Below, piece by piece: positions 2,635 to 34,255 of a stretch of DNA of 34,518 nucleotides. Numbering within the stretch: the first letter of the stretch is position 1; every line of letters begins with the position of its first letter. The position numbers and the translations under genes are program-made. The notes beneath the pieces are model-generated. The model worked only from the letters and a program-made list of their open reading frames with translations, had not been told where the DNA came from and searched no databases. Source of the DNA: a virus; IMG/VR virus record IMGVR_UViG_3300001686_000015, positions 1-34,518 of that record; one strand, written 5' to 3'.

Positions 2635-3681
2635 TCAAACAGATGTTATTGTTTGCCATGCGGCACTTATATATACACATAGCTTTCCTAGAGTTGTATC
2701 ACCAAATAATTGAAATTGAGAAGGTGATGAAATTGCATTTTTTTGTGTTGTCGTTCCCAATTGCGGAATAATTCCGTTTAAAAAGGTTTTATTGCCAGCA
2801 AACGTTTGCGTTCCTGTAGATACCCCCCCTGGATTTGTAGCATCTGCAGCTTCTAAATTAAGCTGTTGCCCTATTAATGATAACCCTGCTGGATTAGGCG
2901 TTACCCCAAAACTTAAAAGTGAAACATTCCCTGTGTTTGTGTTTGATAGATTGCTTGCAGATATTGTTCCACTAAAGGTTTTATTGCCAGCAAACGTTTG
3001 CGTTCCTGTAGATACCCCCCCTGGATTTGTAGCATCTGCAGCTTCTAAATTAAGCTGTTGCCCTATTAATGATAACCCTGCTGGATTAGGCGTTACCCCA
3101 AAACTTAAAAGTGAAACATTCCCTGTGTTTGTGTTTGATAGATTGCTTGCAGATATTGTTCCACTAAAGGTTTTATTGCCAGCAAACGTTTGCGTTCCTG
3201 TAGTAACAACGCCTGGAAACGATGCAGTCGCCGCCTCTAAGTTAAAGTTTGGGCCCGATAATGTCATTCCAGCAACATTAGGAGTCGCACCGACTGCGAG
3301 AATATTAAGCCCGATTTGTTTATTATTAAATGTTGTCCAATCTATCGATGAAAGATAACCGTTTGCTAAAGTAGTAGCGACAGGTATAGAAAGCACACCA
3401 CTATTTAAGGCTAAAGGCGCGGTAACAGTAACGACATTTTGTGAGTTATCTACTTTTTGCCACGCACTACCATTAAATACAACCCAGTCTCCGATATTCC
3501 ATGTACTAACACCGTTTAAATTTGTGCTTCCTGCCACTGAAACTATATAAAAGTCACCTTTTGTACCAACACTTGAAACAAGCGTAGGCGTATTCGTAGA
3601 CGCATTCCAAGAGCCTTTGTAATTCAAAGGAAACTGAATGCGCGGTGGAATCAAATTGATAAATGGAGTTGTAAAGCCCAT
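2635..3681 (-). CDS. tail fibre protein with internal tandem repeats
   Basis: The 348-residue protein opens with LNYKGSWNASTNTPTLVSSV and continues with GDFYIVSVAGS and WNIGDWVVFNGSAWQKVD, a module common in phage tail fibres and fibre-associated proteins. The middle is built of repeated units containing GTQTFAGNKTFSGTISASNL, and the end reads LGKLCVYISAAWQTI. Two of the repeats are identical at DNA level over 192 bp, a recent duplication that lengthens the shaft by 64 residues. Downstream of the baseplate genes, it probably forms part of the host-binding apparatus. No intramolecular chaperone/peptidase domain is seen at the C-terminus. Confidence 0.7.
   Translation of the reverse strand: MGFTTPFINLIPPRIQFPLNYKGSWNASTNTPTLVSSVGTKGDFYIVSVAGSTNLNGVSTWNIGDWVVFNGSAWQKVDNSQNVVTVTAPLALNSGVLSIPVATTLANGYLSSIDWTTFNNKQIGLNILAVGATPNVAGMTLSGPNFNLEAATASFPGVVTTGTQTFAGNKTFSGTISASNLSNTNTGNVSLLSFGVTPNPAGLSLIGQQLNLEAADATNPGGVSTGTQTFAGNKTFSGTISASNLSNTNTGNVSLLSFGVTPNPAGLSLIGQQLNLEAADATNPGGVSTGTQTFAGNKTFLNGIIPQLGTTTQKNAISSPSQFQLFGDTTLGKLCVYISAAWQTITSV
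2782..3203 (-). repeat. 192-bp perfect tandem repeat (two full copies plus 38-bp partial) inside the fibre gene
   Basis: Copies span 2782-2973 and 2974-3165 and appear identical base for base. A third copy begins at 3166, matches for about 38 bp and then diverges, although the encoded protein remains similar. The unit is an exact multiple of three (64 codons), so the frame is kept. Identity including third codon positions points to very recent unequal crossing-over or slippage. Confidence 0.95.
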
Positions 3682-9315: not shown

Positions 9316-9915
9316 TTATCCAGTGATATTGTTTATCGCACCATTAACACTATTGACAGCATTAGATATTGAGTTTGTAATTTCTGTGATTGCGCCCGTT
9401 GTTGCTGACTCTAAATCACCAGCCGCTTCTAGGGCTAACCCAACAATGCCCATCGCGCCAATAATGCCGCCATTATTAATAAACTGGGATAAATCCAAGG
9501 CTTCTGTATAGGCTGCTTGAATCGCATCAGAAAATGAAATAGGGATTGCAAAATTTATCGGTATTGTTAAATCTTGGACGACGGTTAAAACTATCTCATA
9601 ATCTATTTGATAACCCATTCGTAATGTAGATTCAAAGCTTTTTACGACTACGAGATAACTATAAGTAGAATAGGTAAAAGTAACTTGTTTGCCATTAACC
9701 GCAAGACTATCTAGATATTTAGCTCTTTCTATTGAAAGAATTCCCCTAAATAATCCCTTAAATGATATATCTTTATAACTGGGGCCTAAAGTATCTGTAA
9801 CGCGAATGCCGCCTATCAGTTCATTAACAGATTCACGCTGAGAAATTCCTCTAGGGATTGCTTCCGGTACTTCCGTTGCATTAAAAAATATCTCACCGAG
9901 ACGTACGATGATCAA
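9316..9915 (-). CDS. tail tip / baseplate protein downstream of tape measure
   Basis: A 199-residue protein whose first about 130 residues form a beta-rich domain (IFFNATEVPEAIPRGISQRE; DTLGPSYKDISFKGLF; YSTYSYLVVVKSFESTLR; YEIVLTVVQDLT), similar in style to Dit-like or XkdQ-like tail tip domains. The C-terminal 60 residues are Ala/Gly/Ile-rich and probably helical, ending in repeated SAVNSVN-type motifs. It overlaps the tape measure stop by four bases and precedes the LysM gene. It occupies the position of Mu gpN-type (DNA circularisation) baseplate proteins; function inferred from order. Confidence 0.6.
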   Translation of the reverse strand: MIIVRLGEIFFNATEVPEAIPRGISQRESVNELIGGIRVTDTLGPSYKDISFKGLFRGILSIERAKYLDSLAVNGKQVTFTYSTYSYLVVVKSFESTLRMGYQIDYEIVLTVVQDLTIPINFAIPISFSDAIQAAYTEALDLSQFINNGGIIGAMGIVGLALEAAGDLESATTGAITEITNSISNAVNSVNGAINNITG

Positions 9916-11681
9916 AGAGAACCGCCATAATTAAGCATATTTGGCTGCAAACTAATATTTGGATTAAATAAAGAACCGTGTGAAGGCTGACGATTTGCTT
10001 GTTTTGATTGGATTTTTGTTACCGTGTGCGATATTTCTTTAGAATCCATTTGATGGTGTGTATGAATTTCAAGCGTTTGCTGATGCGCTTTAGCGATTGC
10101 CGAACTCATCGCTTGATTAGATGCGTAGTTAGGATCCCATTTTGAATTGTCTGGTAATGTTGGGACTAATGAATTTCTAACGCTATGAAATGCCCCCATA
10201 AATCCAATCTTACTAAGAAATGCCTCAATTTTATTAAACCACCATTCAAAACCATCGCCTAAGGCTTGTATCAATAATTGATATCCTTTAAGTGCCGTTT
10301 TCCATTGCGTTAAAATTAATAATGTTGCGCCGAGGGGGGTACTTAAAAGAGTAAACGCAGAGGCAAGCTTCTTCACGGTTCCAACAATAGCAAGAGCAGC
10401 AGCCACTTTAAGAAATGCAATACCTAATTCTTTTACTTCTGTTTTATGCGCCCTCATCCAAGGTATAAAAATCGCAAGTTCATTATTGATATCTTTTAAA
10501 ACACGAAGTGTAAGTGGTAAAAGATTGTATCCAAGTTCTATAAATATATTTTGAAGATTTGTTAAAGAGGATTGAAATTGTTGAGAGACTGATTCTTTAA
10601 CAAATTTATCTTGAATTGCGCCCATACTTGCCAATTGCTTAAAGTCTGCATTCATAGATGCAAGTTGCGCAATAGCTGCCGGACTTGATAATAATGATGC
10701 CACTTTTCCGCCTTGAACCCCAAAAGCGTGCTGCATATCTATTGCTACTCTCTCTCTTCCATGTCGGGGATCTTTTGAGATAGCACTACTTACAAATGCT
10801 GAAAGCCCCATTATCCATTGATCGGTATCAAATTTTCCATTTACCATGAACTTTGAATGCCCATGTTTGTCAATAAAACCCATATCAGCTAATGCTTCAT
10901 GACTCTTACCTTTAAGCAATCCTGAACCAAAAATACCTGGGATAGTTCTTGTGATTGCGGCCGCTAAGTTTGTTCCTCCCCTGCTTCCTTTTAACCCAAG
11001 ACGACTAAGAAGAGCGACCATCATAAGATTGTGCGTATCATCAACGCCAAATGCAGTTTTTAGAATTGGTTGTGAGTAAGACATTGCGCTTCTTAATTCG
11101 CTAACCCCGCCAGGCATCATTAAAGATACCTTTGTTATTTCATTGAAATATGGCTCAACTTGAGCTGGAGAATATTTTTGCGCTAAGTGCATCATTTGAA
11201 TAGCATTAACAGCACTGGACATTGGGTCGGTTTTTTTAAGTAAACTTTGAACATCTACAAATTTTGCAATGGTAGGCATTAATGCAGAAAGCTGAGGCGC
11301 GCTAAAAGAATTTGATGTTGCAATTTTCTGAGCGACAGCCGACATTTGTAATGCGTTAAATTGTGTCGGCACAGATGCGTTTTCTATGGAAAGTCTAAGC
11401 TTATCCATTTGCTCGACAGTTCCATTCGTCGCAACCTGTATGCCAAGCATATTTTTTTGTAATTCTGCGGCTTTTGTTATTCCATAAACGATTGGTGCAG
11501 CGAATGCCGCAGCCGTACCGAAAAGATTAAATGAAGAACTTTTTATTGCATTCATTTTTGTTATGAAAACATCGCCTTCTTTATTAAGAATATTAAGCTG
11601 TTTTGAAATAAAAGTAAGTTGAGGGCTTATGTCGTTTATTAACGACAATTTCATCAATACTTTATAGTCTTCAGAAGACAT
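9912..11681 (-). CDS. tail tape measure protein
   Basis: A 589-residue protein with the expected TP901-like N-terminus: a helical start, a hydrophobic segment (NLFGTAAAFAAPIVYGITKA) and the segment LRLSIENASVPTQFNALQMSAVAQKIA, followed by a long Ala/Gln/Lys-rich helical region. A second hydrophobic stretch lies near residues 420-460 (FLKVAAALAIVGTVKKLASAF). Length suggests a short-to-medium tail (about 88 nm if the usual 1.5 angstroms per residue held over its whole length). It sets tail length and is probably ejected with the DNA. The gene follows the tail completion-like gene, and the two chaperone frames lie further upstream, as expected. Confidence 0.85.
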   Translation of the reverse strand: MSSEDYKVLMKLSLINDISPQLTFISKQLNILNKEGDVFITKMNAIKSSSFNLFGTAAAFAAPIVYGITKAAELQKNMLGIQVATNGTVEQMDKLRLSIENASVPTQFNALQMSAVAQKIATSNSFSAPQLSALMPTIAKFVDVQSLLKKTDPMSSAVNAIQMMHLAQKYSPAQVEPYFNEITKVSLMMPGGVSELRSAMSYSQPILKTAFGVDDTHNLMMVALLSRLGLKGSRGGTNLAAAITRTIPGIFGSGLLKGKSHEALADMGFIDKHGHSKFMVNGKFDTDQWIMGLSAFVSSAISKDPRHGRERVAIDMQHAFGVQGGKVASLLSSPAAIAQLASMNADFKQLASMGAIQDKFVKESVSQQFQSSLTNLQNIFIELGYNLLPLTLRVLKDINNELAIFIPWMRAHKTEVKELGIAFLKVAAALAIVGTVKKLASAFTLLSTPLGATLLILTQWKTALKGYQLLIQALGDGFEWWFNKIEAFLSKIGFMGAFHSVRNSLVPTLPDNSKWDPNYASNQAMSSAIAKAHQQTLEIHTHHQMDSKEISHTVTKIQSKQANRQPSHGSLFNPNISLQPNMLNYGGSL

Positions 11682-11685
11682 AATT

Positions 11686-12174
11686 TTATACCTTTTCTTT
11701 GAATGCCGCGTTTATTGTACGACCAGCACTCTTTAATCCTTCATAAGAAGCTTTTCTAATTACTTTTTTTATGAATGCAATATTTCTAAATGCCGCAGGG
11801 CCAATGAAGGGGCGCATCTCCATTTTGGATGTGCCGAATTCGTGATTTACAGATTTTGGGTCAGTACATCCAAAATAAATAGTAAGATCAACGACGTTAC
11901 TTTTTATTGAGTCTCGCATTTCACCTGTTCTTAAAAGAGGATTATCGGGCGGTGCGTATCCTAATTTTTCTTTTTCATCGACTGTACTTTGTTTTAAATC
12001 TTCCCAATCTGGAAATGGCCCAATTGCTGTTTGATAATGCGATATTTCCTTTTTTGCGGTATCAACTAATTTATCGGCAACAACTTTTAAACCTTCGTGC
12101 AAAAATATCTTATGCGTTATTTTTAATTTTAAAAGTAAATCAGCCATTTCTTCTACAGTAAAAAAACTTGTCAT
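11686..12174 (-). CDS. virion morphogenesis / tail completion protein (gpS/gpG-like)
   Basis: A 162-residue protein with the pattern of Mu gpG and P2 gpS relatives: an N-terminal helix, then PFPDWEDLKQSTVDEKEKLG, PLLRTGEMRDSIKS and ending in VNHEFGTSKMEMRPFIGPAA. The RTGxLRxSI, HexGT and RPFig elements are the usual conserved points. In Mu and P2 it joins head to tail or completes the tail. Its ATG overlaps the TGA ending the shifted chaperone frame (ATGA), so translation of it may depend partly on ribosomes that frameshift. It sits between chaperone and tape measure, which is not the usual P2 position. Confidence 0.75.
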   Translation of the reverse strand: MTSFFTVEEMADLLLKLKITHKIFLHEGLKVVADKLVDTAKKEISHYQTAIGPFPDWEDLKQSTVDEKEKLGYAPPDNPLLRTGEMRDSIKSNVVDLTIYFGCTDPKSVNHEFGTSKMEMRPFIGPAAFRNIAFIKKVIRKASYEGLKSAGRTINAAFKEKV

Positions 12175-12724
12175 TTTTTTGTCTCTCTGAATTTCATTCT
12201 TTCAAAATCGAAATGCTGCTCTTCTGGCAGCTCAAGCTCGGATAAGATAATGCAGTAGGCTTGAAGTTCTGTTAATTTTAGTTTAGATGCGATTTTGTGA
12301 GGAATCCCCTTGCTCACAACAAATAACATTGCTCTTAGAATGGGATTCTTTACGAGTTTTTTATTTCTTCTTTTTTCTCCTCAGTCTCTACCATTGGAAG
12401 AAGCCCACTAGAGCCTACGGCACGCGCAATTTGAAGCATCAATTTTAAACTTTTCACATTCTGAACAATTGCTCTAAGTTCAGATTTTGTTTGAGGTTTT
12501 TTAACAGGGATTCCATCGATTGATTTTATGCAGATCAACGAAATAGTATTTGCCATTATTTTATTGCCTTTATCTTCTGTTCCCTGCTGATCCATGCAAA
12601 TCAGAAAATCCAAAAACTCAAGGGCAGATGGCTCTTCTAATACTATAATTCTACCAAAATCATCTATGATTTCGATTTTATTATGGTTTACGAGAGTGAC
12701 TTTTGGCGGATTTGAATCTTGCAT
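12171..12724 (-). CDS. tail assembly chaperone, -1 frameshift fusion product
   Basis: Reading on after a -1 slip at 12356-12362 gives an open frame of about 61 further codons: LVKNPILRAMLFVVSKGIPH, then KIASKLKLTELQAYCIILSE, then LELPEEQHFDFERMKF, stopping at TGA 12171-12173. The extension is the only sensible content of the 175-bp gap between this gene and 11686-12174, and its stop overlaps the next ATG. Most long-tailed phages make such a pair (lambda G/GT, P2 E/E+E'), where a small proportion of ribosomes shift and the fusion binds the tape measure. Both arrangement and position just upstream of the tail completion and tape measure genes support this. Frameshifting itself is inferred. Confidence 0.8.
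12343..12382 (-). promoter_or_regulatory. programmed -1 frameshift signal (A AAA AAC, with upstream SD-like and downstream hairpin)
   Basis: On the - strand the heptamer AAAAAAC (12356-12362) is in exact X XXY YYZ phase with zero-frame codons AAA and AAC. A GAGGAG Shine-Dalgarno-like sequence lies 14 bases upstream (12377-12382), the kind of element that stimulates dnaX frameshifting. Six bases downstream, AGAAT-CCC-ATTCT (ending near 12338) can form a short 5-bp hairpin. The zero frame stops two codons after the heptamer; the -1 frame stays open for 61 codons. Confidence 0.75.
12350..12724 (-). CDS. tail assembly chaperone, unshifted product
   Basis: A 124-residue protein ending VETEEKKEEIKNS at a TAA. 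It is acidic to neutral, helical and without membrane segments, the profile of phage tail chaperones (lambda gpG, P2 gpE). It follows the tail tube gene and starts at an ATG. Near the 3' end lies a GAGGAG Shine-Dalgarno-like sequence and then the slippery A AAA AAC, so it is made both alone and as the N-terminal part of the fusion described at 12171-12724. The product covers tape measure before tube assembly. Confidence 0.8.
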   Translation of the reverse strand: MQDSNPPKVTLVNHNKIEIIDDFGRIIVLEEPSALEFLDFLICMDQQGTEDKGNKIMANTISLICIKSIDGIPVKKPQTKSELRAIVQNVKSLKLMLQIARAVGSSGLLPMVETEEKKEEIKNS

Positions 12725-12740
12725 ATATTAATCTCCTCAA

Positions 12741-13178
12741 TTAAGTAATTTTTTCAAAACGTGTTGCGAAACCAGATAACTTTTGTGAAACAAGCTCATT
12801 GCCTTTTTTCATACCAAACGTATCAACTTTTAATTGAACATTGGTATAAACATGCTGAGATACAGAGCCATCAACTTCTGTGATGGTTTCGTAAATAGTT
12901 CCGCCTGGTACATCGACGCCCGCATAAAACGCTGCTTCAGATAATGCCCAATAAGTCTCAATCTCATCATCTGTTCTTGTGATTTCCATATCAATGGCAT
13001 GCCCTTCATGGACAACATATGGCGTAATAATGCCGCTTACACCCAGGTTTTTTCCAACCTTAGCATCAGGCTTTGCTTCAAAATTTGTAATAAAATTAGA
13101 TGAGAGTATTAGCTCACCTTGTGCTGTGTTTATAACCCAGCTTACATCACGTGCAATCGTCATCCCGCCTGCGGACAT
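12741..13178 (-). CDS. tail tube protein
   Basis: A 145-residue protein, beta-rich, immediately downstream of the sheath gene and upstream of the chaperone, as in Mu and P2. It contains ELILSSNFITNFEAKPDAKV, GIITPYVVHEGHAIDMEITR and VQLKVDTFGMKKGNELVSQK, strands and loops expected of the tube fold (an N-terminal loop, a six-stranded barrel and a C-terminal hairpin). It polymerises into the inner tube. The catalytic-type motifs of other proteins are absent. Sequence is compatible with the Mu gpM type rather than P2 FII. Confidence 0.8.
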   Translation of the reverse strand: MSAGGMTIARDVSWVINTAQGELILSSNFITNFEAKPDAKVGKNLGVSGIITPYVVHEGHAIDMEITRTDDEIETYWALSEAAFYAGVDVPGGTIYETITEVDGSVSQHVYTNVQLKVDTFGMKKGNELVSQKLSGFATRFEKIT

Positions 13179-13209: not shown

Positions 13210-14775
13210 TTAATTGACTGGGACAGTTGAAACTAAAGAAGGCTGTCCATTTTGAAGGTTCACAATGAAATTTCTGATCACCGAATAATTAACAACCTGT
13301 ATATCAGCTTGCATATAGCCTTGAGATACGCGATTACTTGGGTTATTCGTCGCATCAAGTAAAATACTAAATGCTTTGGTTGCTTGATTTGGGAAATTCA
13401 CATCGCCGATCAATCCAAGGTTATAAAGATTGATGAAAAATGTTGTTAGGGTAGCTTTTGCAGATGATCTAACACTTGGATTCTGAAGAAGACCAATGTA
13501 AAGTCCGATTGCGAATGCAATACTATAAGCAATATAATTTGTCAGGGTTGTGTAGTCGTCCATCCTGATTGATTGATTACTTGAAGTATTTTGACCAGTC
13601 TGCAATGAAAAATAATTACCGCCGGATGATGGGTTATAAATAACATCAAGGCCATTATCGCAAGCAAAAATAATATCTGCGTTGGTGTACATACCACCGC
13701 TTTTTGTAGTTTGTGTGCCGACAACACCAAGTATTTGCTTGTTCAATGCAGATTCGCTGGGCAATAAATTCACGCGACGCCCGCAAGCAAAACCTTGCGG
13801 TGAAATTAAACGGGTGAGGCCGCTATAAGTATCAAAAATATAGCACCAGTCGCCGACCAAGAATTTAACATCGTAGTTATCAATACCTGCCGCATCTTTC
13901 GCTGTTTTTGCTTGTGCAAGTGTTTGACCAGCGGGCCCGACAATGTGCATAAATATGCCTTCAGAAATAGCGAAAGCAATTTGAGCGCTGTAGCTAGTTG
14001 TATCGTCCATATCATTGAGCATGGCAACGCTGCATTTTGAACCACGAAGCGCGTACATTCCTGTGCGAGGGGCTGTATCAGAACCGACCATAACTGTTGC
14101 TGTAATAGTCGTTGCGCCGTCTAAACCACCAGTCAAAGTATAAGTTGCATTTGCTGGTGCTACAGTCGATATGCCAACCGTAGCGACAATTAACTCAGAT
14201 GGCCCGCGGATACCACTTTGCCCTAAATTAATTGCATCAACCATTGCCTGCCAAAGCGCTAAACCCGTTCCTGCAATATTGTCAAAAATTTCAGGTGTGC
14301 GACCCGCGCTTAAGTTATTTGGCAGCGAAACTGAAATACGTTTAGTGTTTTGCGCAGAACCCGCACCTATGGTCACGCTGACAGAATTTCCGAGTGTGCC
14401 AGTATAAATCGCTGTAGCCGTCATGCCTGTTGCGGGCGCAGTATCAAGGATAGCTTTTGATGCGGCCGCATCTGTGCCATCAGTGACGCGCACACATCTA
14501 AAATTGTTTGCGCAATTTAAAGATGCCGCATAAATGCCAGTACCAAGATCGTATTTTCTTGCGACTGGGAGTCCGAAATTTCTCACATATTCGTTCATGT
14601 TACCGCAAATAACTGCGGTGTTTTTCTGTCCCCATGTAGCAGTACCAACTTCGCCAAGGATATTACTTGCAACGCCGTTAATCTGCGTCTGAGATGGAGG
14701 CAAAATATTGACTATTCCACCAGGCGCTAACAATGATTGCGGATTTACTGTTCCCGCTTGTACGACCTGAGTCAT
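13210..14775 (-). CDS. contractile tail sheath protein
   Basis: A 521-residue protein with sheath features: a flexible N-terminus (VVQAGTVNPQSLLAPGGIVN), the segment AVICGNMNEYVRNFGLPVARKY, GTGIYAASLNCANNFRCVRV, and a C-terminal half with IAYSIAFAIGLYIGLLQNPS and the strand YMQADIQVVNYSVIRNFIVN. The C-terminal end is where sheath subunits interlock. A subdomain containing VSVTIGAGSAQNTKRISVSL is inserted. Contractile sheath makes the phage a myovirus. Order (sheath, then tube) is standard. Confidence 0.88.
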   Translation of the reverse strand: MTQVVQAGTVNPQSLLAPGGIVNILPPSQTQINGVASNILGEVGTATWGQKNTAVICGNMNEYVRNFGLPVARKYDLGTGIYAASLNCANNFRCVRVTDGTDAAASKAILDTAPATGMTATAIYTGTLGNSVSVTIGAGSAQNTKRISVSLPNNLSAGRTPEIFDNIAGTGLALWQAMVDAINLGQSGIRGPSELIVATVGISTVAPANATYTLTGGLDGATTITATVMVGSDTAPRTGMYALRGSKCSVAMLNDMDDTTSYSAQIAFAISEGIFMHIVGPAGQTLAQAKTAKDAAGIDNYDVKFLVGDWCYIFDTYSGLTRLISPQGFACGRRVNLLPSESALNKQILGVVGTQTTKSGGMYTNADIIFACDNGLDVIYNPSSGGNYFSLQTGQNTSSNQSIRMDDYTTLTNYIAYSIAFAIGLYIGLLQNPSVRSSAKATLTTFFINLYNLGLIGDVNFPNQATKAFSILLDATNNPSNRVSQGYMQADIQVVNYSVIRNFIVNLQNGQPSLVSTVPVN

Positions 14776-20518: not shown

Positions 20519-21007
20519 TTAGCATTTTAAAATCTTCCCGTTTTTTAAAATAATACTAATAAAAAGTTTTGCTTCGCCGCTTAAATGCGTAAATGTATGA
20601 TTAAGATCAGATAAAATCGCACTTACCTTGTGAAGTTCTGAGGCTAGATAGTGATTTCCAACCTTAGTGGCATTATTGATATACGCTTCGATTTCGTCTA
20701 AGGCATAATCATATTCTATCTTTTTAATTTTTATCGGTTCGTTAAGTTTATCTTCATTACTTTCAATGTAAGTTATTTCATCAAAAGCAACAGATGAAGA
20801 ATCTTCATCGGTAATTTTTATTTTTATTTCGGGTTTAACGTATAATTTATTAACTTCCTGCTCGGTTTCTACTTCTAACCTATCAAGAACTTCTAATATT
20901 TCATCACCAGTCTCATTTTTAACAGACGATAAAATAACTTCTTTTTCAGTTGATTCTATTAATTCACTTGATTCACTTTTTGATTTAGCGCGATCTTTCT
21001 TTGACAT
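20519..21007 (-). CDS. acidic hypothetical protein in the head region
   Basis: A 162-residue protein with a highly charged, Ser/Glu/Lys-rich N-terminal 100 residues (KKDRAKSKSESSELIESTEK, EVLDRLEVETEQEVNKLYVK) and a C-terminal helical part (YALDEIEAYINNATKVGNHY, ASELHKVSAILSDLNHTFTH). No family is recognised. It lies between the repeat-rich protein and the broken small gene within the head module. A head-assembly or scaffold-type accessory role is possible from its acidic helical character, but this is a guess. Confidence 0.6.
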   Translation of the reverse strand: MSKKDRAKSKSESSELIESTEKEVILSSVKNETGDEILEVLDRLEVETEQEVNKLYVKPEIKIKITDEDSSSVAFDEITYIESNEDKLNEPIKIKKIEYDYALDEIEAYINNATKVGNHYLASELHKVSAILSDLNHTFTHLSGEAKLFISIILKNGKILKC

Positions 21008-21017
21008 AATCTACTCC

Positions 21018-22484
21018 TTAACTTACAACCAAAACATCAATCAATCCGGCTGCAATTGTGCCACCGCTTACTGGTGTTAAAATGACATCAAAGCCAGTCG
21101 CGGTTTTGCTAGAATCTGCAACATGCCAGAAACATTCTTGCTGTGGATTAACGAAAACAGAATAGTTATCTGATAAATCAGCGGTTGTACCAAAACTTAT
21201 CGAAGTTGTTACAGGATTATTTGTTTGGCTGCCCAATGTAATTGTTCCAGCGCCACCACCTGTGCTGCCTCCACCTGTCACTGTGATTGCAGAGCCACTA
21301 TCGTACAAAGTACCGGCCGAACTTACCGCGATTGAAGTTAATCCATAAAGCGGGGTAAGCGTTACGCCTGTCCCTGAACCCGAGGAGGTGGTTGAAATTG
21401 GGTTAGAGGCAAGAACCGTTAAATCTCCAGGAGTGGAAACAGTAAACCCTAAGAGACCATATAAAGCGGTGTTAAACGTAGCGCCTGTGCCAGAACCTGA
21501 AGTGCTAGCTTGAGTGAAAGATGATGCGTTTGTTTGATATATTCCTGGGGTTGTAATGGTGAATGTATTAACACCATAAACAATTGTATTAAATGTAGCG
21601 CCTGTACCGCTTCCCGACGTGGCAAACTGTGTGAACGTAGACGCGTTTGTTGTATAAGAACCTGCTGTCGAAACAGTCAATGTCAGTACACCGAAAAGAG
21701 CTGTATTAAAGGTCGCGCCAGTTCCTGATCCGCTCGTGGAAGCTTGCGTGAACGTCGTACTTAAAACAGTATAATCGCCAGGCGTAGATATATGGAAAGT
21801 CGCCACAGCACCAGAAGAAACTGTATCAACCGTGATAACTGCCGCTGTACCCGTTCCTCCAGCTAAAGTAATCGTATCACCAGGCGCATAACCTGAACCA
21901 CCAGCATTTTTAGCAACACTTACCAACTGCGCATGAGTTACTGTAAATATAGCTTTTGTCGCACCAGCGCCACCGGCAACGGTAATAGTATCGTTAATTG
22001 CATACCCCGAACCTGCGGTCAAAACTGCTTTACTGATGACTTTTGTGGTTGCAACAGTGAGAATTGCAGCGGCGGTGAAAACGCCTCCTGCCAATGTGAT
22101 AGTGTCAGTTGGTGCGTATAAGGTACCCGCAGCGTTTACAGCAGCGCTCACAAGTTTTGTCGTACTGATAGTTAATATTGGCTCTGTACCCGTGCCACTG
22201 CTAAAAGTTATGGTATCGCCAGGCGCGTAACCTGTGCCCACAGCGGTGATTCCGGTTGTAGATAAAGCTTTCATATGTGGGACAAGAGTAGCACCCGAAC
22301 CATGCCCCGATGTGCCGATTGTTGGCAGCGTTGCATAACTACCAGCAGCGGTCACAGCGACAGATGCTATAACACCAGGACTGCCTAAGTTTACTGCGTT
22401 CGCTTGCATACCCATTATGACGCGATCGGTGTATTTAAAATTTGATTTGTCTACTAATTCAACATCATGGACTTGCAATGGCAT
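21018..22484 (-). CDS. repeat-rich probable head fibre / decoration protein
   Basis: A 488-residue protein with only a short unique N-terminus (PLQVHDVELVDKSNFKYTDR) and a C-terminal domain (SVFVNPQQECFWHVADSSKT, GFDVILTPVSGGTIAAGLID). Between them are Gly/Thr/Ser/Ala repeats of two kinds: type A, about 36 residues with GSGYAPGDTITLAGGTGTAA, four or more copies at about residues 60-210; type B, about 39 residues with FTQASTSGSGTGATFNTALF, about four copies at 210-370. Such glycine-rich repeats with a capsid-like end domain suggest an exposed head fibre or decoration protein. It is preceded by a terminator. Its DNA repeats are diverged, so old. Confidence 0.6.
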   Translation of the reverse strand: MPLQVHDVELVDKSNFKYTDRVIMGMQANAVNLGSPGVIASVAVTAAGSYATLPTIGTSGHGSGATLVPHMKALSTTGITAVGTGYAPGDTITFSSGTGTEPILTISTTKLVSAAVNAAGTLYAPTDTITLAGGVFTAAAILTVATTKVISKAVLTAGSGYAINDTITVAGGAGATKAIFTVTHAQLVSVAKNAGGSGYAPGDTITLAGGTGTAAVITVDTVSSGAVATFHISTPGDYTVLSTTFTQASTSGSGTGATFNTALFGVLTLTVSTAGSYTTNASTFTQFATSGSGTGATFNTIVYGVNTFTITTPGIYQTNASSFTQASTSGSGTGATFNTALYGLLGFTVSTPGDLTVLASNPISTTSSGSGTGVTLTPLYGLTSIAVSSAGTLYDSGSAITVTGGGSTGGGAGTITLGSQTNNPVTTSISFGTTADLSDNYSVFVNPQQECFWHVADSSKTATGFDVILTPVSGGTIAAGLIDVLVVS

Positions 22485-22657: not shown

Positions 22658-23017
22658 TCAATTTGATTTTGTTATGACACAAGATTTATTTCGGTGGACG
22701 GATATGGACTCGGTGGACGGATATGGACAATGAATACTTCCACCAACTGAAGCAACGCAAACAGAGGCAATGTTCTCAGAATATATATGCACATTAACCT
22801 GAAGCGTGCTTGGTGGAGATTTTACGCCTGATCTTCCCAATGGAGGTTTTGAAGTATCCAAACGCCCTATGGGAGTATATCCACCATATTTATAATCTTT
22901 ATCCATATTTAACCTCTTTATAAATTTTTTACGGATTTTAAAAAGTTTATTTAATCTTGCTTTCTCTTTATTGCTGCCCCATTGGGCAGTGCCGATCACG
23001 TTAATATTGTTAGTCAT
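22658..23017 (-). CDS. hypothetical protein with altered C-terminus
   Basis: A 119-residue basic protein (TNNINVIGTAQWGSNKEKAR, LNKLFKIRKKFIKRLNMDKD, then KYGGYTPIGRLDTSKPPLGR). The Lys/Arg-rich centre followed by a Gly/Pro-rich linker suggests nucleic-acid or wall binding but no family is recognised. The last about 18 residues come from a 19-bp tandem duplication at 22691-22728, which shifts the frame: with one copy the protein would end CPYPSTEINLVS. Its start overlaps the stop of 23010-23282 by eight bases. Lies among the small genes between portal and head fibre. Confidence 0.6.
   Translation of the reverse strand: MTNNINVIGTAQWGSNKEKARLNKLFKIRKKFIKRLNMDKDYKYGGYTPIGRLDTSKPPLGRSGVKSPPSTLQVNVHIYSENIASVCVASVGGSIHCPYPSTESISVHRNKSCVITKSN
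22691..22728. repeat. 19-bp perfect tandem repeat in a coding region
   Basis: The 19-base unit TCGGTGGACGGATATGGAC is present twice in direct succession, 22691-22709 and 22710-22728. Because 19 is not a multiple of three, the duplication changes the reading frame of the gene it sits in (22658-23017). Perfect identity points to a recent event. Confidence 0.95.
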
Positions 23018-23282
23018 TTTTTTCTTCTTTTAAAATTTTTAATTTATCGGAATATGGATATGCGTTTATACCATTTCCAACAGAAATATTGACATTTGGC
23101 GCAATGCGAAATGCTATTATTTTCCCGTTATGATCTCTTTCAACGGTAATTTTTGCCTTACTCATAGGAATATCCGCATCACCAAAATCGTGAGTAGGAA
23201 ATAAGTCGCGAATATCACCCTCAATAGTGTCTATCTTATGATAATAATCTGGGTTATTAAAAACTTTCGATGCTTCATCCAT
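23010..23282 (-). CDS. small hypothetical protein downstream of portal
   Basis: A 90-residue protein containing FPTHDFGDADIPMSKAKITV and DHNGKIIAFRIAPNVNISVG. It overlaps the next gene by eight bases and follows the portal with a 26-base gap. The pattern of two beta strands around a "NGKI" turn is common in small phage proteins, but no family is recognised. Its position between portal and head fibre suggests a head-related role. Confidence 0.6.
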   Translation of the reverse strand: MDEASKVFNNPDYYHKIDTIEGDIRDLFPTHDFGDADIPMSKAKITVERDHNGKIIAFRIAPNVNISVGNGINAYPYSDKLKILKEEKND

Positions 23283-28845: not shown

Positions 28846-30078
28846 TTAAGTTATTGGCGTAATTTTATTTTTCATTTCATCAAACGATTTTTTAAATTCT
28901 TCATGAATAGCTTTTTTTCCCGAATAGTCTTGCCAGCGTTTTATAATGACATCGCAGTATTTTTCGCTTAATTCCATCATAAAGCAGTTTCGGGATGTTT
29001 TTTCACAGGCAATCAAGGTAGAACCTGACCCACCGAAAAAATCTAAAATATTTTTTGATTCTTTAAAATATTCATTAAAGCACCATTCAGAAAGTGCAAT
29101 CGGTTTTTGAGTTGGATGAACTCTTGATTCTTGTCTTTCGGAATCTTTCATTAAACCTTTCCAAAGATGGCGAAAAATCCGAACACTCTTTTTTTGAGGG
29201 TGCTTAATATAAGCCAATTCACAATCACTATTATTATCTCTTTGATTTTCTTCTACCCTTTTATCCCAAACTAGCCAACATGGGGAATCTGGCAATTTAT
29301 GACAAAAATAATTTCCACCCCAATAAATAACAATATCCGATAAAGAATCGGCAATTGAAAATACTTCAATGGCGGTTTCTATAGAATTATCACCAATAAT
29401 CGCATCAAAATCTTTGCTTTTCCCTATTCTATTTTTAACAGAGTTTTTAATGGTTCTTTCTGTTGGTTCATTTATTCCATAAGGGGGATCAGTAAAAACC
29501 ATATCGATTTTTTTATTATTTAATAATTTTTCAATGTCGGTAATTGCAAGACTATCACCGCACATCAAACGATGATTGCCCAAAATCCAAATATCACCAC
29601 GCTTTGATATCGCTTCTTCGGCAATCTCAGGTACACTATCTTCTTCCCCGCTACCAGGTGGTAATTCCTCTACAAACAGATTAGCTATTTCTTCATCATT
29701 AAACCCAGTTAACGAAAGATCAAACTCAAGCGCTTTTAAATCTTCAAACTCAAGCGTTAAAAATTCATTGTTCCACGTGGTTTCTTCAGCCACCCTATTG
29801 TCTGTAATTCTAAAAGATTTACCCTGCACCTCTGAGAGATCATCAGCTATGATGACGGGCACTTTTTCTATTTCTAATTTTTTTGCAGCGAGATATCTGG
29901 TATGCCCTGCCAATATATTTTTATCTTTATCGACAACGATAGGTTGTTTAAAGCCAAATTCTTTAATACTCATCGCTACTTTTTCTACGCCCGCGATATT
30001 ATTTCGTGGGTTTCTGTCGTATGGATTTATTTCATCAAGTGCCAGGTAAACAATTTTCAATTCAGTCATTGGGTTCAT
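28846..30078 (-). CDS. ParB/Srx-like domain fused to DNA adenine/cytosine-N4 methyltransferase
   Basis: A 410-residue protein. Residues 5-95 form a ParB/sulfiredoxin-like domain: LDEINPYDRNPRNNIAGVEK, IVVDKDKNILAGHTRYLAAK, a motif found on many phage methyltransferases. Residues 160-400 are the methyltransferase: CGDSL, FTDPPYGINE (DPPY at 197-200) and FFGGSGSTLIACE (at 347-359). DPPY before FxGxG places it in the beta class. It uses S-adenosylmethionine and probably protects phage DNA from host restriction. No restriction endonuclease gene is nearby. The start overlaps the stop of a tiny upstream ORF (ATGA). Confidence 0.88.
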   Translation of the reverse strand: MNPMTELKIVYLALDEINPYDRNPRNNIAGVEKVAMSIKEFGFKQPIVVDKDKNILAGHTRYLAAKKLEIEKVPVIIADDLSEVQGKSFRITDNRVAEETTWNNEFLTLEFEDLKALEFDLSLTGFNDEEIANLFVEELPPGSGEEDSVPEIAEEAISKRGDIWILGNHRLMCGDSLAITDIEKLLNNKKIDMVFTDPPYGINEPTERTIKNSVKNRIGKSKDFDAIIGDNSIETAIEVFSIADSLSDIVIYWGGNYFCHKLPDSPCWLVWDKRVEENQRDNNSDCELAYIKHPQKKSVRIFRHLWKGLMKDSERQESRVHPTQKPIALSEWCFNEYFKESKNILDFFGGSGSTLIACEKTSRNCFMMELSEKYCDVIIKRWQDYSGKKAIHEEFKKSFDEMKNKITPIT

Positions 30079-33418: not shown

Positions 33419-33757
33419 ATAAAAGTAGTTGCTACCAGTAAAAATGGTGAAAAAATAGAATTGCCATTAATGGAATATGCGGTAGGCTTTCCTTGGATAA
33501 AAATATCAGAAAGACTGCCAAAAATTGACACTTTAATAGAAGTAAGGTGTATTGATTTTGACACAAAGGAAAAATTCATAACTGAACACACCACTAAAAT
33601 AGTCAAAGCTTCTCTAAGAAAGGCTACTATTGAATTTGAATCAGGTAAATCATCAGAACTTTTTGCATTTATTGAGTGCACCACAACGCAAAAAGAAATA
33701 GAACTAGGTACTCAAATAATATTGTTAGCTACAGAGTGGCGAGAATTATTAATCTAA
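33419..33757 (+). CDS. hypothetical protein with a probable ATA start
   Basis: The frame is open far upstream of the in-frame TTG at 33461. The first ATG/GTG/TTG after the previous stop in this frame is that TTG, but the sequence before it reads as protein: IKVVATSKNGEKIELPLMEY. An ATA at 33419-33421 lies seven bases after GAGGA (33407-33411), the normal place for a start codon. The protein then continues AVGFPWIKISERLPKIDTLI, resembling a DUF551-like phage protein (WIxISerLPxxxxxVlv) with a C-terminal strand. It overlaps the convergent nuclease gene by nine bases. Either ATA is the start or the ATG has been lost. Confidence 0.5.
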   Translation: MKVVATSKNGEKIELPLMEYAVGFPWIKISERLPKIDTLIEVRCIDFDTKEKFITEHTTKIVKASLRKATIEFESGKSSELFAFIECTTTQKEIELGTQIILLATEWRELLI

Positions 33758-34255
33758 AACTTGAAATGAAACCTTAAGCCTCTTATTGTAATTATCCTCA
33801 TACGCCTTTGCAACTATATCACTTTTGATAATAAGTAAATTTTCAGCATTTCTTTTCTGAGCATTCGCGCTAAAATTATAACTACCAGTGATGACTATTT
33901 TATCGTCAATTATAATGACCTTGTTGTGCGCTATCGTAACTTTTCGATCAATCCAGACCGGAATCCCTAAATCATGAAAATATAGCGCCGGAGAATATCC
34001 TTTTTTCCTGTCTTGCGTCTTATCAAGTATGATCTGAACCTTGACACCACGCCTATTAGCTCTTTCTAGTGCGATTGAAATAGGCGTTGACGTTAATTGG
34101 TATGCCTGAACTTCTATCATTCGCTGTGCGTTATCTATTGCGCCAATGATCTGCATATCGCATCGTTCGCCTGGCGTGAAGCATGGAGATACGTCGGCGG
34201 GAATTGCAAACACTGAAAACGGCAGAAGCAAAAAGAATAGTAATATATATTTCAT
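33749..34255 (-). CDS. secreted phospholipase D-family nuclease (Nuc-like)
   Basis: A 168-residue protein with signal peptide MKYILLFFLLLPFSVFA cleaved around residue 17, then a single HKD motif: AHNKVIIIDDKIVITGSYNF (His110, Lys112, Asp117). Preceding segments match the family: MIEVQAYQLTSTPISIALER, RRGVKVQIILDKTQ. One HKD per chain is normal for the Nuc type, which dimerises and cuts DNA in the periplasm. Its ORF ends nine bases inside the convergent gene 33419-33757. It could degrade incoming DNA; this is inference. No promoter was identified. Confidence 0.85.
   Translation of the reverse strand: MKYILLFFLLLPFSVFAIPADVSPCFTPGERCDMQIIGAIDNAQRMIEVQAYQLTSTPISIALERANRRGVKVQIILDKTQDRKKGYSPALYFHDLGIPVWIDRKVTIAHNKVIIIDDKIVITGSYNFSANAQKRNAENLLIIKSDIVAKAYEDNYNKRLKVSFQVLD

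Follow-up and report, generated by a model that had tools for sequence, protein, structure and literature searches.

Does a small gene in the tail region of IMG/VR virus record IMGVR_UViG_3300001686_000015 specify one protein or two? In the window, by which we mean the whole stretch of DNA analysed (positions 1-34,518 of that record, 34,518 nucleotides), this gene is followed by a 175-bp gap, and a preliminary description had proposed that a -1 frameshift of the G/GT, E/E+E' type fills the gap by joining two tail chaperone frames.

Gene neighborhood and proposed slip site

All features of the locus are encoded on the minus strand. A tail sheath gene typical of contractile tails (13210-14775; phrog_23, E 1e-30) is followed by the gene for a probable tail tube protein of 145 aa (12741-13178), the zero-frame gene under study (12350-12724, 124 aa, stop TAA at 12352-12350), its -1 frame extension (12171-12356), a tail completion/Neck1-like gene (11686-12174; phrog_26, E 8e-8) and the tape measure gene (9912-11681; phrog_28, E 2.7e-18). 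The tube assignment is itself probable and derives from position, as the product matches phrog_12993 of unknown function (E 9e-27) and the sheath gene precedes it. A small gene between tube and tape measure is the arrangement expected of frameshifted tail chaperones, and the zero-frame gene occupies that place. Spacing in this region varies among related loci: about 400 nt of additional DNA separates the tube and chaperone genes in L076, L080 and L082, and the sheath-tube interval of ~30 nt in the window corresponds in Komagataeibacter phage phiKX1 (L002, 4650-5232) to ~580 nt holding only one short annotated minus-strand gene.

The zero frame ends GAA ATA AAA AAC TCG TAA, which places the heptamer A_AAA_AAC (12356-12362) in phase near the 3' end of the gene. 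A slip on this heptamer would read on as CTC GTA AAG and so forth in an overlapping -1 frame that opens with CTC (first base 12356), spans 61 codons with AAA as the last, and terminates at a TGA (12173-12171). This stop shares bases with the start codon of the following gene (ATG at 12174, giving ATGA), and the frame thereby fills the gap of 12175-12349. The phase of the heptamer, the 61-codon frame and the stop overlap all agree with the preliminary description; the fusion counts 184 residues (123 + 61), one fewer than the 185 given there. Considered alone, the heptamer of the window is unconvincing: codon shuffling gave P ~0.044 for an in-phase heptamer within the last ten codons, and in this AT-rich window in-phase slippery heptamers of the tested set occur at 5 of 56 coding-strand ORF ends. 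Relatives were therefore required.

Conservation of the heptamer and the -1 frame

A close-relative search of viral contigs with the zero-frame protein returned no relative, and tblastn in phages with the zero-frame proteins of the window and of locus L026 gave no match. Used as query, the extension matched two IMG/VR contigs, at 76% and 66% identity, and also led to Komagataeibacter phages phiKX1 and phiKX2; between the nearest relatives the extension is 66-76% identical versus 35-40% for the zero-frame protein. A wider collection of viral loci was assembled with profiles of the tube and of the extension. Because circular selection was to be avoided, the main viral set of 80 loci was picked by the tube protein profile alone. 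Six of these contigs end before a readable extension; among the remaining 74, an in-phase slippery heptamer stands where the zero frame ends in every case (74/74, or 64/64 non-identical loci). The extension is a conserved protein with a K-(L/I)...(N/K)G(V/I)P core. Neither an extension lacking relatives nor an unconserved heptamer, the findings named beforehand as speaking against a frameshift, was encountered.

Together with 14 loci picked by the extension and the window itself, the 64 non-identical loci form a set of 79 viral loci, all of which carry a heptamer at the same site: GGGAAAC in 57, AAAAAAC in 15, AAAAAAA in 6 and AAAAAAT in 1. The encoded dipeptide varies (Gly-Asn, Lys-Asn, Lys-Lys) while slipperiness persists, and the zero-frame stop lies directly behind the heptamer in 72/79. 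As a control, other gene ends of the same loci carried an in-phase heptamer in 2 of 670 cases. Because many of the sequences are relatives of each other, the locus counts do not amount to independent events.

A second set comprised 72 loci that the zero-frame profile picked out of bacterial genomes belonging to the order of Komagataeibacter, among them L105, which is one and the same locus as L102, already found through the extension. The heptamer is present in 70/72, namely 69 of the tested set and one GGGAAAT. The two exceptions differ in kind. L122 (G281:C359) retains an intact -1 extension with no standard slippery heptamer found near the zero-frame stop, its slip site being lost, degenerate or unusual, and L141 (G186:C29) carries the extension in a frame other than -1 with its own ATG, possibly a natural case of a frameshifted extension turned into a gene of its own. 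The zero-frame family was found in 118 of 299 sampled genomes of this order, some with two or three copies, and its carriers are apparently a widespread, little described group of prophages or tail elements.

A covarying stem downstream of the heptamer

Downstream of the heptamer, the window can form a stem of 7 bp in which a 5' arm GAAUCCC (12342-12348), beginning 7 nt past the heptamer, pairs with a 3' arm GGGAUUC (12302-12308), so that 12348-12342 faces 12308-12302. Across the family the spacer is 6-7 nt, within the 6-9 nt expected of the 3' stem in a stimulated, dnaX-like cassette. A short hairpin six bases past the heptamer had been described previously; it exists (AGAAU-CCC-AUUCU), but the conserved element is the longer stem, which shares its 5' arm.

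The distance from heptamer to the conserved core is 48 nt in 77/79 viral loci, and this constancy made a gap-free alignment of 76 loci feasible. RNAalifold missed the long stem in the 76-row alignment, reporting 2 pairs, and explicit pair counting with controls was therefore used. Columns 14-22 and 54-62 form standard pairs in 91.3% of cases versus 37-48% for slid partners, contain 28 double-change cells versus 5.6 ± 2.0 in shuffles, and outperform every other helix when all positions are scanned. Since both arms encode conserved residues, synonymous codons were randomized within each locus, which left 6.04 ± 0.11 of 9 pairs (300 runs, maximum 6.34) compared to the 8.25 observed; for the window alone, its 7 pairs correspond to P ~0.004. 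The bacterial-genome set shows the same stem, paired in 91.8% versus 40-53% when slid. The stem is conserved, with compensatory changes, beyond what the encoded protein requires; arms in other members include GGGAUUCCG/CGGAAUCCC (L099), GGAACCCC/GGGGUUCC (L096) and GGCACCCCG/CGGGGUGCC (phiKX1).

Folding energies give a mean z of -2.66 at the site versus -0.39 for random segments, the window by itself being modest at -1.2 to -2.0. An inner helix (columns 24-28 with 48-52) is weak, a subset of loci lacks the stem of columns 14-22/54-62 (e.g. L091-L093, L150, L170, L175 and L176), and a search of Rfam produced no match. Among the new details of the locus we regard the conserved 3' stem as the most informative, and we make no claim that it is unique to this family.

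An upstream SD-like motif

A possible second stimulator is the SD-like GAGGAG at 12377-12382 (minus strand), which lies 14 nt upstream of the heptamer, just where the preliminary description had placed it; in a dnaX-like cassette such a motif is expected about 10-14 nt upstream. With an SD-like core defined as GGAG, GAGG or AGGA located 8-20 nt upstream of the heptamer, 54/79 viral loci carry one versus 118 of 1343 control segments (8.8%), its first base falling most often 13 nt upstream. The core is rarer in the group with A-rich heptamers (8/22) and in the bacterial-genome set (20/69), and a role for it is consequently less sure than for the stem.

Identity of the two protein parts

The zero-frame product is probably a tail assembly chaperone. 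Its family is PHROG 20383 (E 8e-8), annotated as "unknown function", and the PHROG for "tail assembly chaperone", phrog_508, matched only at E 0.09-0.33. Pfam scans of the zero-frame part and of the extension, a PHROG scan of the extension and profile searches of PDB sequences returned nothing useful or relevant; the extension is represented in neither Pfam nor PHROGs. AlphaFold2 models reached pLDDT 82 for the zero-frame part and 92 for the extension, and the top PDB fold match of the former was the HK97 tail assembly chaperone 2ob9, a weak match (E 0.23, TM 0.35-0.38). Given no sequence match to a named family and a weak fold match, the chaperone assignment owes most to the order of the genes and to the frameshift. 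In BFVD, the best matches were A0A6J5SEP5 (104 aa) for the zero-frame half and A0A6J5SEC2 (49 aa) for the extension half, whose close accession numbers suggest that they may be neighbors in one uncultured phage.

Evaluation of alternative explanations

The extension could instead be a separate small gene whose translation begins at its own start, such as the ATG at 12329 (52 aa), through reinitiation or coupling once ribosomes reach the chaperone stop. The window does possess this in-frame ATG, phiKX1 is annotated with two genes, and L141 exemplifies such an arrangement. However, the ATG of the window is replaced by Ile or Ala codons in the nearest relatives, and from the heptamer to the N-G-V-P core 75/79 viral loci contain no ATG in the -1 frame and 40/79 contain no ATG, GTG or TTG, such that fusion is the only evident route to this conserved protein in the latter. 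Moreover, conservation of the -1 frame sets in right at the heptamer (KL or KI, then the extension), and a separate gene would leave the in-phase heptamer unexplained. We consider independent translation highly improbable. Even less credit is due to transcriptional slippage, by which RNA polymerase would slip on the A run and give a fraction of mRNAs with a fused frame. The site is A-rich in part of the family, with a run of nine A in L097, but the run in the window is six A, and GGGAAAC, which is no homopolymer, is used by most viral loci (57/79) and by 31/72 bacterial-genome loci, so that homopolymer slippage offers no general explanation; the downstream stem and SD-like motif also better match slippage by the ribosome.

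A different possibility accepts the frameshift and assigns its main role to expression of the overlapping completion gene through coupling, rather than to the fusion protein; the preliminary description had likewise proposed that the slip controls how often the downstream gene is reached. In favor of this, the window and several relatives share the overlap between the stop of the extension and the next ATG. Against it, the overlap is not found in all relatives (where the start assignment is heuristic), and the completion gene is preceded by its own SD-like sequence (CAGAGAG in the window; several relatives have AAGGAGC). Conservation of the extension protein is also strong, exceeding that of the chaperone when near relatives are compared. 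Coupling as the main role is very unlikely, and dependence of the downstream gene on the slip is possible but unsupported. Overall, the conserved heptamer, the conserved -1 frame protein, the lack of start codons in half of the loci and the gene order support a -1 frameshift of the lambda G/GT, P2 E/E+E' type, and we infer, with a probability of roughly 0.93, that programmed -1 ribosomal frameshifting yields two tail assembly chaperones from this one gene.

Proposed mechanism and relation to known systems

According to this proposal, the majority of ribosomes would terminate just past A_AAA_AAC to release the 124-aa form, and a minority would slip back one base on the heptamer to produce the 184-aa fusion with its 61-residue C-terminal domain. 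The RNA stem downstream would probably assist the slip, as would the SD-like motif upstream in many members. By analogy to lambda gpG/gpGT, binding of the tape measure protein may fall to the short form and recruitment of tube subunits to the fusion, with the slip rate setting the ratio of short form to fusion. A point against the proposal is that, in E. coli, A_AAA_AAC and A_AAA_AAA rank among the weak slip sites (PMC5009743). The stem position fits the published range, and weak heptamers combined with a stimulator would make a coherent picture. We lean toward the view that this lineage sets its chaperone ratio by a structured cassette in which an E. coli-weak heptamer (AAC or AAA in the A site, in most members with the stop codon right behind) is joined by a covarying 3' stem and, in many cases, an SD-like motif. 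If true, RNA structure would tune the ratio of short form to fusion as a trait, unlike tail-chaperone slips described without stimulators.

This kind of chaperone frameshift is already known; the family is not annotated as such. A published review lists G_GGA_AAC and A_AAA_AAC as G-T sites in haloarchaeal viruses, so these heptamers are not new. In lambda gpG/gpGT (Levin 1993; Xu 2004, 2013, 2014, as cited in PMC5009743), a -1 slip on X_XXY_YYZ likewise appends a C-terminal extension to the product of a small gene located between tube and tape measure, the heptamer again lying close to the gene end. The lambda heptamer is G_GGA_AAG, whereas the A-site codon here is AAC, AAA or AAT, and in lambda T runs straight into the tape measure gene, whereas here a completion-like gene intervenes. 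Also unlike lambda, the locus described here has a covarying 3' stem and a stop that usually lies directly behind the heptamer. Sequence similarity to gpG/gpGT was not found, the weak fold match being to the HK97 chaperone only. Phage P2 is alike in placing a -1 frameshifted chaperone, gpE/gpE+E', between tube and tape measure in a contractile-tailed phage; its slip site is T_TTT_TTG. The dnaX gene of E. coli (PMC5009743, PMC7618472) resembles the cassette in its way of working only, with an upstream SD-like motif, an A-rich heptamer and a downstream stem-loop. The dnaX slip uses A_AAA_AAG and ends one codon later, whereas a long extension follows here, and the SD-like motif, a feature of dnaX, is found in part of this family only; the cassette of the window is not a member of dnaX.

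The closest described phages, phiKX1 and phiKX2 of Komagataeibacter (LC644975, LC644976), belong to the same family: the relatives of both protein parts occupy the same place in an identical gene order, with A_AAA_AAC, a direct stop and all 9 stem pairs, and their extension shares 28% identity with that of the window over its whole length. In both, the annotation records no frameshift and lists the two parts as distinct hypothetical proteins. The analysis provides a probable function for PHROG 20383 and for an extension that neither database covers, and illustrates how gene annotation splits such a fusion in two, as in phiKX1. The conserved stem further offers a directly testable case of RNA structure as the setter of a chaperone ratio in a tailed phage.

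Other features of the window

In-phase A-rich heptamers (AAAAAAT, AAAAAAC) also end the minus-strand frames 23010-23282 and 20519-21007, probably by chance in AT-rich DNA. Elsewhere on the minus strand, the product of 28846-30078 has a ParB N-terminal domain fused to an N6/N4 DNA methylase, and the products of 2635-3681 and 21018-22484 contain long internal repeats (NLEAADATNPGGVSTGTQTFAGNKTFSG; SGSGTGATFNT) and are probably fibre or head decoration proteins. Finally, the protein encoded at 33749-34255 (minus strand) combines a PLD-like domain (PLDc_2, E 4.5e-25) with an N-terminus that resembles a signal sequence, and is possibly a secreted nuclease or phospholipase D-like protein.
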